Source of the DNA: a bacterium
GTDB lineage: Bacteria; Armatimonadota; UBA5829
Length of the DNA stretch: 64,000 nucleotides
Direction: 5' to 3'
Assembly: GCA_021371935.1 (NCBI GenBank)
Contig: JAJFVF010000012.1
Span: 1 to 64,000 of the forward strand
The stretch's first letter is position 1. Every line of letters begins with the position of its first letter. Below, piece after piece: positions 18,624 to 62,090 of this stretch. The translations under genes and the position numbers were made by a program. The notes under the pieces were generated by a model. That model was not told where the DNA came from, ran no database searches, and saw nothing but the letters and a program-made list of their open reading frames with translations.

Positions 18624-19227
18624 TTGATTATTTTTGAAACCCAAAGGCTGATAGCCCGTTATTGGGAACCTGATAAAGACGCCGAGCAGGCCTTTCGCAT
18701 TTATTCCCACCCCGAGGTAACCCGCTTCATACGTGCTCCAAAAGATATTCCTATTAATGTGGATGCGCAGAGAGATGAACTGATGAAGAAATGTGCCGAG
18801 TATCGTCACAACGACGGCACAGGCTACTGGCCCGTATTATGCGTAAAGCGCATAATACGGGTCTCCGAGAGCATTATTCACGTTTCTCGTGAATAATGCG
18901 GGCTGGGCGCTTGAAGAAAAGGAGTCAGGCATAGTAGTCGGAAGCGTAATCTTGAAGTGGCTGCCGGATGCGGACCGGGTTCCAACAAAGGACATGGAGG
19001 TCGGCTGGCATATGGGTCGTGAGCACTGGGGCAAAGGCTTTGCGACCGAAGCAGGGATGCGAGCTGCGCGCTATGCCCTGGATACTCTAGGCCAGAGCGT
19101 GATATATGCCGTAGTCAGGCCGGGTAATGAACGTTCCGTCCGTGTGACTCAAAGGATCGGCATGCGACCGGTGGGCACGACAAACAAGTATTACGGCGCA
19201 GAACTGCTGCTTTTTGAGTTGAGATGA
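18624..19227 (+). pseudogene. GNAT family N-acetyltransferase, interrupted by a 72-bp repeat element
   Basis: The N-terminal part (18624-18830) reads FETQRLIARYWEPDKDAEQ and onward to GTGYW. The C-terminal part (from 18903) reads ALEEKESGIVVGSVILKW, then GWHMGREHWGKGFATEA (acetyl-CoA loop) to the end. Between them lies the element at 18831-18902 and a duplicated CTGG. Removing the element and one CTGG restores GYWALEEKESG in one frame, a perfect RimJ/RimL-like protein. As it stands the insert (76 bp) shifts the frame and the first ORF stops in the element's second hairpin. The two halves are unlikely to fold separately. Confidence 0.88.
18831..18902 (+). mobile_element. Double-hairpin MITE-like element, copy A1 (disrupts GNAT gene)
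   Basis: 72 bp. First hairpin cccgtattatgcg / cgcataatacggg, linker tctccgagag, second hairpin cattattcacg / cgtgaataatg, end cggg. Flanked by CTGG at 18827-18830 and 18903-18906. Because the host gene's frame is known, this is the clearest proof that the unit inserts as a block with a 4-bp duplication. Confidence 0.9.
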
Positions 19228-21492: not shown

Positions 21493-21603
21493 GGTAACAG
21501 CCTCCTTGTGAGCAATTCTAATTAATTAAATTCACGATTTTTTGTATTTTAATGGTATAAAAAACAATAGCGGTACGCAGGCGACAAACTGTGAACTACC
21601 TAA

Positions 21604-21675
21604 CCTGGATTATGCACTTCTCGCATAATCCGGGTCTCCGAGAGCATTATTCACGTTCTTCGTGAATAATGCTCG
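21604..21675 (+). mobile_element. Double-hairpin MITE-like element, copy A2
   Basis: 72 bp, same two-hairpin layout and tctccgagag linker as A1, in the intergenic space upstream of the NmrA-like gene. Flanked by CTAA (21600-21603) and CTAG (21676-21679), one mismatch from a perfect duplication. The end has decayed to gctcg instead of gcggg. Confidence 0.88.
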
Positions 21676-22056: not shown

Positions 22057-22245
22057 AAAAGCCCCACATGTGCCGTGTGCCTACCGAGTTTTTGAACCCT
22101 AGCGAACCAGGGCGGAGTCTCCTGTCGACCTTCGCGATTTCCCGATTGCTCGGGACTGCCACTTTGGATCGGCAAGTAAAGACTCCTACAATTTTGAGTG
22201 TCGGCTCAAAACTTCCTCGACTAATCACGTACACCGCAGGGCTTT
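22057..22245 (-). ncRNA. ssrS: 6S RNA
   Basis: About 189 nt on the minus strand, folding as one long rod. The 5' aaagccc pairs with 3' ggggctttt; tgcggtgt pairs with acacggca with a single mismatch; agttttgagcc pairs with gggttcaaaaact around the central region; ggagtc pairs with gactcc further in. The stretch ttgagccga on the 5' side and agggttcaa on the 3' side match the corresponding segments of Escherichia coli 6S RNA as I recall it. 6S RNA mimics an open promoter and traps housekeeping RNA polymerase in stationary phase. Ends are estimated from the closing stem. Confidence 0.8.
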
Positions 22246-26445: not shown

Positions 26446-26545
26446 ACTAAGTAAAATACTGCCTTGAACTTGTATCAGAGAATGTGCTTCTAATATACTG
26501 GTTCTAAACCAAAACGCACAATTTACTCTGCGTAAATTGCTTAGT
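26446..26545 (-). mobile_element. MITE-like repeat, copy B1
   Basis: About 100 bp, read on the minus strand: actaagcaatttac at one end and a complementary actaagtaaaatac end at the other, with the shared internal part ctctgatacaagttcaaggc. It matches copies B2 and B3 at 43 and 60.8 kb over most of its length. It lies just before dusB. Confidence 0.8.
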
Positions 26546-40366: not shown

Positions 40367-40438
40367 CCCGGATTATGCACTTTCCGCATAATCCGGGTCT
40401 CCGAGAGCATTATTCACGTTCATCGTGAATAATGCGGG
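40367..40438 (+). mobile_element. Double-hairpin MITE-like element, copy A3
   Basis: 72 bp, two hairpins and the tctccgagag linker, between the AraC regulator and the Lon-like gene. Flanked by CTAA (40363-40366) and, after one extra T, CTAG (40440-40443). Confidence 0.9.
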
Positions 40439-43067: not shown

Positions 43068-43243
43068 ACTAAGCAATTTACGCTATGTAAATTGCACGTC
43101 TCGGTCTGAATTCCGTATTCAGAACACATATCTCTAGCTCGTATTATTCACGAGGAACGTGAATAATACTCTCAGAGACCCGGATTATGCGGCAAGCGCA
43201 TAATCCGGGCTAATACAAGTTCAAGGCCGTAATTTACTTGACA
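43068..43243 (+). mobile_element. MITE-like repeat, copy B2, split by copy A4
   Basis: Left part 43068-43137 and right part from 43210 match B3 at 60.8 kb: hairpin gcaatttac / gtaaattgc, then gcacgtctcgg and the tail atacaagttcaaggccgt. Element A4 sits between cacatatctct and atacaag, where B3 continues directly. B2 therefore predates A4. Confidence 0.82.
43138..43209 (-). mobile_element. Double-hairpin MITE-like element, copy A4, nested in B2
   Basis: 72 bp in reverse orientation: the cattattcacg-type hairpin first, then the linker ctctcagaga, then the cccggattatgc-type hairpin. Flanked by CTAG (43134-43137) and CTAA (43210-43213). Confidence 0.9.
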
Positions 43244-54603: not shown

Positions 54604-54655
54604 CTCGGTGCCTCCTTATGAATAACTGAATATCGGGCATAGTCGGCGAATGAGG

Positions 54656-54695
54656 CTCCGAGAGCATTATTCACGATCTTCGTGAATAATGCGGG
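54656..54695 (+). mobile_element. Partial double-hairpin element, copy A5
   Basis: Only the linker ctccgagag and the second hairpin cattattcacg / cgtgaataatg with cggg are present; the first hairpin is lost. Followed by CCAA. A decayed copy. Confidence 0.8.
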
Positions 54696-54826
54696 CCAAG
54701 CCTCTCGCACTGCGTACCCTCGCTTTTGTTACCCAGTGCCACTTTTGTGCAAACCTGTTGACAATGTGGCGACAAAGCGTTTACATAAATCAGCCAAATG
54801 GCTCGGCAGGAGCCTCGCCCTCCCAG

Positions 54827-60786: not shown

Positions 60787-60807
60787 AGATCATCCTCCAT
60801 TATCTAG

Positions 60808-60904
60808 GCAATTTACGCTATGTAAATTGCACGTCTCGGCCTAGATATCGTATACTCAGAGCACATATCTCTGATACAAGTTCAAGGCCGTGATTTACTT
60901 GACA
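60808..60904 (+). mobile_element. MITE-like repeat, copy B3
   Basis: About 97 bp, the intact form of family B: hairpin gcaatttac / gtaaattgc, gcacgtctcgg, cacatatctctgatacaag and gttcaaggccgtgatttact. Bracketed by CTAG at 60804-60807 and 60905-60908. Element A7 follows at once. Confidence 0.82.
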
Positions 60905-60908
60905 CTAG

Positions 60909-60938
60909 CCCTGATTATGCTGGAAGCGCATAATCAGG
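60909..60938 (+). mobile_element. Single-hairpin derivative of the double-hairpin element, copy A7
   Basis: Only the first hairpin remains: ccctgattatgc, loop, gcgcataatcagg, 30 bp. Still flanked by an exact CTAG duplication (60905-60908 and 60939-60942). Confidence 0.85.
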
Positions 60939-61613
60939 CTAGTGCATCTGCGCATTCATACTGCGCGCAATTTCTCTTCGAGAATTAACACCGAGTTCCT
61001 GGTATATCCGGCGCAAGTGGGTCTTTACTGTGTTGATACTCAAATATGCAGCAGTGGCAATTTCTTTGTTTGTGAGTCCTTTGCTGACGAGATCGAGTAT
61101 CTCTTGCTCTCTTGGGGATAGATTTGATATCGACTGATAGCATTCAGAAATATCGTGGGGAATTCCACATCGTGCACACTCACGCACTGCATCGACAAGC
61201 ACACTGATGTCAAACGCATAGCCGCCATCAGCCACTTCTCTTAAAGAAGAAACAAGCTCTTCAAGAGAACACGTTTCAAACACACAACCACTTACGCCTA
61301 CGCTGATTGCCTGCGCCAGATTGTCTACCCTTAGCCGAGAAGCTAGAATAATCCACTTTGCTTCAGGATATTCCTTAGCCAGTTCCTGCGCCGCATCGGT
61401 TCCCGACCCGTCAGGAAGTGAAAATCCTATAAGCACAATATCTGGCCTGGCATCAGCAATAACCGACCTTGCATCCTTGACAGAGCCGGCCTCACTTACT
61501 ACCCTGAACTCACCTAGCTCAGAAAGACGACGAGCCAGTAGTTCTCGAAACATCTTGTTGACATGAACAACAACAATACGAGTTTCTTTTCCACGATTAT
61601 TTCCATGAGCCAT
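60939..61613 (-). CDS. NarL/LuxR-type regulator with a degenerate receiver domain
   Basis: 225 residues. The C-terminal LuxR helix-turn-helix is complete: LSPREQEILDLVSKGLTNKEIA, then YLSINTVKTHLRRIYQELGV. The N-terminal receiver has the right size, but the phospho-acceptor site is Gly63 (VLIGFSLPDG), the conserved Thr is Ala91, the Lys is Glu113 (VFETCS), and the acidic pair is missing (VVVHVNK). It is therefore probably not regulated by phosphorylation. ATG 61613 after ggggg at 9 bp. Its stop overlaps the end of the A7 flank (CTA). Confidence 0.88.
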   Translation of the reverse strand: MAHGNNRGKETRIVVVHVNKMFRELLARRLSELGEFRVVSEAGSVKDARSVIADARPDIVLIGFSLPDGSGTDAAQELAKEYPEAKWIILASRLRVDNLAQAISVGVSGCVFETCSLEELVSSLREVADGGYAFDISVLVDAVRECARCGIPHDISECYQSISNLSPREQEILDLVSKGLTNKEIATAAYLSINTVKTHLRRIYQELGVNSRREIARSMNAQMH

Positions 61614-62090
61614 CGTACAACACCCCCTTGGGCAACACATTAAAAGATGGATTCTGGTTTCGTGGAATCAGCCCCACAATGTGTGTTTTATATGCTAATG
61701 TGCTACATTCCTTCGCATTTGCTGAAAAATTTTTGCGAATTCCGGTATACCCTTTTAGGCAATCGCCTAGTGCATTAATCAATGCGGTCTTAGTAGTCCG
61801 GTATGTTATATTCTGCCTACTCATCTTATAATACCTCGTCAACAAGCAATTTCGATGAAATGCATTATAATTATGAGGACAATTGCGACAAGGATTATCA
61901 CCCAAGTGGAGTGATAAACGTATGACAATAAAGTGTGATACTGGCAGCACAAAAGGTTAACACAGGAGATTAGCCTTACTCATTCGCTATGGGCTAATTA
62001 TGTGGCGACTCAGCCTAACCCGGATTATGCGCTTACCGCATAATCCGGATCTCTGTGAGCATTATTCACGTTTCTCGTGAATAATGCGGG
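61614..62090. other. Intergenic region with element A8
   Basis: About 400 bp without a convincing gene, followed by element A8. A minus-strand open frame (61597-61950) could begin at an ATG near 61820 preceded by gagg, but its product looks arbitrary and it would run into the ribosome binding site of the regulator gene. A short inverted repeat aggcaatcgcct occurs near 61759. Confidence 0.5.
62019..62090 (+). mobile_element. Double-hairpin MITE-like element, copy A8
   Basis: 72 bp, the most canonical copy: cccggattatgcg / cgcataatccgg, linker atctctgtgag, cattattcacg / cgtgaataatg, cggg. Flanked by an exact CTAA duplication (62015-62018 and 62091-62094). The right duplication contains the stop codon of the LptD-like gene. 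Confidence 0.92.

Follow-up and report, generated by a model that had tools for sequence, protein, structure and literature searches.

How did a 72-bp element come to lie inside a copy of a second, longer repeat, and can the order in which the two families spread be read from such a nest? The question is raised by positions 43068-43243 of the stretch of 64,000 nucleotides analyzed here (hereafter the window), which belongs to an uncultured genus of Armatimonadota. The genome itself (G000) is a 3.54-Mb assembly of 22 contigs that is about 98% complete. A sister genome of the same genus (G004) served as the comparator for empty sites, and G003 and G001 represent further members of the genus. Our results make it likely that the two repeats, A and B, are unrelated non-autonomous MITE families, and that the composite of one within the other was copied as a unit.

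Two dispersed repeats in the window

Alignment of the 176-bp nested sequence against its own genome gave 58 matches, element A gave 56 and family B about 43, in each case among the matches listed; these figures are not exact copy numbers, as one copy may count twice or more and 40 candidates were scored per genome. B is a dispersed repeat with a copy number far beyond chance, and the 14-bp motif at its end (CTAAGYAAWTTACG) has 90 matches at ≤1 mismatch versus 2 for the reversed motif. Among 84,980 species genomes, the exact B pattern occurs only in Armatimonadetes bacterium UBA5829. Neither exact pattern was found in IMG/VR contigs, and a search of Rfam with both elements returned no known RNA family.

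The features of the window are collected in Table 1. A sequence-only reading of this DNA had placed A inside B at 43068-43243, with coordinates that proved correct within 1-2 bases, A4 being exactly 72 bp, and had recognized B3 as uninterrupted at the A site, where it does read through as CATATCTCTGATACAAG. The 30-bp single-hairpin element at 60905-60942 raises the possibility that half an A element is able to move alone. The A element at 21603-21674 is located about 0.4 kb from a 6S RNA gene (Rfam) at 22057-22245 on the minus strand.

Table 1. Members of families A and B located in the window.
Feature	Position	Strand	Remarks
B2, family B element interrupted by A4	43069..43241	+	about 97 bp without the insert; composite about 170 bp
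A4, two-hairpin element A (72 bp) within B2	43138..43209	-	flanking tetramers CTAG (left) and CTAA (right)
Left-end hairpin of B (GCAATTTAC ... GTAAATTGC)	43073..43095	+	most conserved part; hairpin folds likewise in B3
B3, uninterrupted B element	60804..60902	+	
Single-hairpin A-like element, 30 bp	60905..60942	+	CTAG at both flanks; flush with B3
B1, divergent uninterrupted B element	26447..26544	-	
Free A element	40367..40438	+	without surrounding B
Free A element	62018..62089	+	CTAA at either flank; L023
Free A element	18830..18901	+	CTGG at either flank
Free A element	21603..21674	+	flanks CTAA / CTAG; L169
Half A element, second hairpin only	54655..54698	+	absent from the matching position of the sister genome

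Family B inserts into CTAG and doubles TA

Family B elements are 97-99 bp long, have no coding capacity and end in AGYAAWTTACG, with terminal inverted repeats CTAAGCAATTTACG / CTAAGTAAATTACG, a size and structure typical of MITEs; together with its target, the end of the element reads CTA-AGCAATTTACG. Two loci have exact empty counterparts in the sister genome. At L035, GCGA-CTAG-CAAGG in G004 corresponds to GCGA-CTA-[AG...CT]-TAG-CAAGG in G000, and at L037 the sequence TACC-CTAG-AAATT in G004 faces the same CTA-[AG...CT]-TAG pattern in G000. L044, L032, L051 and L053 are also empty in G004, their target tetramers differing by 1-3 substitutions, and at L002 the CTAG is present in G004 next to a diverged right-hand sequence. 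These empty sites indicate that B inserts in CTAG and doubles TA, so that B joins the target duplication and empty sites of a MITE to the 2-bp TA duplication of the IS630/Tc1-mariner type. The earlier suspicion that B is a mobile insertion is supported by its absence from several loci of the sister genome. The 4-bp CYRR duplications looked for at the flanks of B were not seen, only the TA within CTAG being doubled.

The ends of B also had to be redrawn. The acttgac tail that had been taken as an end is, in B2 and B3, a decayed form of the true right end, ...TTTACT followed by TAG. Similarly, the CTAG tetramers around B3 had been read as the target of that element; on the left stands the element's own end, altered by one substitution, and the right CTAG stems from the 4-bp duplication at the adjoining A-like element (60905-60942). 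The prediction that the ends are the conserved part was upheld by an alignment of B, in which identity is 0.88 on the left and 0.82 on the right versus 0.67 in the middle, and these ends are probably the part recognized by a transposase. Elements of a subfamily, C, have ends 93% identical to those of B at both sides and an unrelated core: in B, the ends are conserved and the middle can be exchanged. A third hairpin of about 35 bp (AGAGTCACATTTCC..GGAAATCTGACTTA) was observed in certain B- and C-type elements, within their left loop (L204, L205, L206, L210 and L223 in G000; L067, L069 and L071 in G003), with two such hairpins in tandem at L069.

The CTAG that holds the nested copy L003 in G000 is occupied in G004 by another element (L184; G004:C69, about 72.2-72.5 kb), which has similar CTAAG ends around a different core. 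This CTAG sits at the end of an upstream open frame, and the locus suggests that one CTAG was used repeatedly.

Element A duplicates four base pairs

Element A consists of two hairpins linked by TCTCYGAGAG within 72 bp that have no coding capacity, and its ends, CCCG.ATTAT, form imperfect terminal inverted repeats (CCCGGATTATGC / CCCGCATTATTC), again a size and structure compatible with a MITE. Identical 4-bp flanks were found in 28 of 44 copies, compared with a mean of 7.3 and a maximum of 17 in 20,000 shuffles. The duplicated tetramers are mostly YTAR, to which the CYRR first proposed must be corrected, although TGTA, TATA, TAAA and CTGG are also seen; A thus has the target duplication of a MITE, in the 4-bp YTAR form expected of an IS5-derived element. 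Duplication of TA only was also considered for A and is ruled out by the same identical tetramers. At L052, where A adjoins B in G000, the corresponding place in G004 (L064) contains B and no A.

Could hairpin elements of this kind be moved by a Y1 single-strand transposase in the style of REP/RAYT or IS200/IS605, without target duplication? Both A and B have terminal hairpins adjoined by CTAG, and the pairing of A hairpin 1 has been maintained by 11 compensatory double changes versus 2 on shuffling, a count that is supportive only since the aligned rows are related. However, the duplications of A are direct 4-bp repeats rather than inverted ones (TGTA/TGTA, TATA/TATA, TAAA/TAAA, CTAA/CTAA), which does not fit REP/REPIN elements mobilized by RAYT, and the empty sites of B resolve into a duplicated TA and symmetric ends. 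Such a mechanism is, in our opinion, scarcely credible.

It also seems very improbable that the host maintains these repeats for a function of its own, as transcription terminators or RNA processing sites, with their nesting incidental. Strong hairpins (folding z of −4.4 and −9.0) would suit this role, as would the finding that 12 of 62 B-type ends contribute a stop codon in frame with an open frame of 100 codons or longer, the two remaining frames giving counts of 2 and 1. On the contrary, copies differ between the sister genomes, the empty sites are clean, and members of the genus have anywhere between about 50 A matches and none. The stop codon bias itself is explained by CTAG targeting together with tolerated insertion; at L035 in G004, the CTAG is directly seen as a gene's own stop codon.

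The same nest recurs at seven loci

An A element or its remnant is found at one internal site and in one orientation in seven B copies (L001-L005, L054 and L055), of which L004, L054 and L055 are truncated or decayed. The order of events, which the sequence-only reading considered directly readable at 43068-43243, cannot simply be taken from this locus, as the arrangement is shared by seven loci and probably arose once and was copied. The B site that received A reads CTAA, within CTCTAATAC, and because A duplicates 4 bp, a fresh insertion there should give CTAA on either side. Instead, the left junction is CTAG in five nested copies and CTGG in one (it is decayed in L054), while the right junction, where kept, is CTAA (GTAA in L002). 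A single insertion that mutated before being copied is the best explanation for this shared mismatch between left and right tetramers, and we regard a single origin of the composite, followed by spread of the roughly 170-bp unit on the ends of B, as the probable history, even though the tree of B backbones leaves it undecided.

In that tree the nested copies fall in two places, with 4 state changes and no single nested clade shown, but the AU test does not reject such a clade (p = 0.22 over 99 columns), the backbones being too short to decide. Two groups of nested backbones would be compatible with A having entered this internal CTAA in several B copies independently, the composite never having moved as a unit. 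Such repeated hits are conceivable because A, which prefers YTAR, has inserted repeatedly at the terminal CTAR sites of B (L033, L049, L052, L059, L219 and L222), where it lies flush in either orientation. Yet all seven internal copies share one orientation (two-sided chance of 0.016 if random), every readable left tetramer is CTAG or CTGG where a fresh 4-bp duplication should have left CTAA, and G004 has neither the composite nor a bare B at L002, L004 and L054. We consider independent insertions unlikely on these grounds. The genes on either side of B2 are separated from each other in G004.

Insertion, target and duplication are directly observed for each family, as is the repeated, identical nesting. 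A mechanism in keeping with these observations would have B cut and pasted in trans into CTAG by a TA-duplicating transposase, presumably IS630/Tc1-mariner-like or IS711-like, and A moved by another transposase, presumably IS5-like and duplicating YTAR. At some point, A would have inserted at the CTAA inside one B copy, whose outer ends remained functional, and the resulting B(A)B composite may then have been copied, moving as a unit, to at least seven loci including 43069-43241. Tentatively, and with less than even confidence, we further suggest that the A-carrying B is a stable composite that multiplies on its outer ends, and that a B end rebuilds the stop codon upon insertion in CTAG (C-TAG to C-TAA-G), thereby entering gene ends harmlessly.

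Relative ages and missing transposases

B2 does contain A4, as stated by the earlier claim that B is older than A, but this claim is too simple given that B-type elements also lie inside A copies (L079 and L208). In this reverse nesting, elements of subfamily C are located inside the second hairpin of A (L079, 2043-2135; L208). A lies inside or flush with B at many loci, and the two families were active in overlapping periods. B has 16 matches in G003 and 6 in G004, whereas A, abundant in G000, has five in G004 and none in G003, a distribution that suggests an earlier spread of B than of A in the genus. A is likewise without matches in G001.

Whether A and B share a partner transposase had also been asked. 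Their different duplication rules, 4 bp for A and TA only for B, make this unlikely. A search for DDE_3 genes across the genus found none, and the DDE_3 loci of other genera in the class are without B ends and thus provide no IS630-type match. DDE_Tnp_1 (PF01609), searched in the own genome, is represented by one gene with ends unlike those of A. This sole DDE_Tnp_1 transposase found in the genome (L203; G000:C12, 310.9-311.7 kb) is bordered by inverted repeats CAGGGCAATCGCATG and presumably resembles ISAs1. Pairs of B ends 0.5-3 kb apart among the 90 end matches, judged by eye, included none resembling a full-length element. Hence, the autonomous partner with the same ends that a MITE would have was not found in the families searched (DDE_3 and DDE_Tnp_1), which suggests that the autonomous partners are missing or lost.

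Comparison with known elements

By their anatomy, A and B are MITEs like the Correia elements and like RUP, proposed to be mobilized by IS630-Spn1. In pneumococcus, RUP is about 100 bp long and gene-less, with short terminal repeats, insertion at TA and many intergenic copies (PMC2229807). B shares the length, the lack of a gene, the short terminal repeats, the TA insertion and the many intergenic copies, but its target is CTAG and no IS with matching ends was found; the likeness drawn here is one of anatomy. Correia/NEMIS elements of Neisseria have short and long forms differing by an internal segment of about 50 bp (PMC2229807), reminiscent of B and B(A)B, except that the internal segment here, A, is also mobile as a free family and makes a duplication of its own.

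As for the duplications, IS630 of Shigella sonnei doubles TA in the target CTAG according to the title of Tenzen and Ohtsubo 1991 (cited in PMC2170065), as does B, which unlike IS630 encodes nothing and belongs to a genus in which our search found no DDE_3. IS711 of Brucella duplicates the TA of YTAR, with a reported preference for palindromic repeats (PMC2266754); B doubles TA likewise, but IS711 is a full IS, and the likeness drawn here is one of duplication rule. IS5 makes a 4-bp YTAR duplication (PMC10359306), as does A, which differs in being 72 bp long with two hairpins. The resemblance of B to IS630/IS711 and of A to IS5 would accordingly concern how duplications work and is not proof of membership.

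BOX, RUP and SPRITE elements are inserted into one another in pneumococcus (PMC3049150); mutual nesting of small repeats is thus already known, and the present case has an unusually readable history. A limited literature search found no work on MITEs of Armatimonadota. Here, one genome interleaves two MITE families that differ in how they duplicate their targets, which allows relative ages to be read from nests and from empty sites. Copies with an element nested in them are informative on whether cargo inside a MITE prevents it from moving, and the missing transposases lead one to ask how families of this kind survive or die out.
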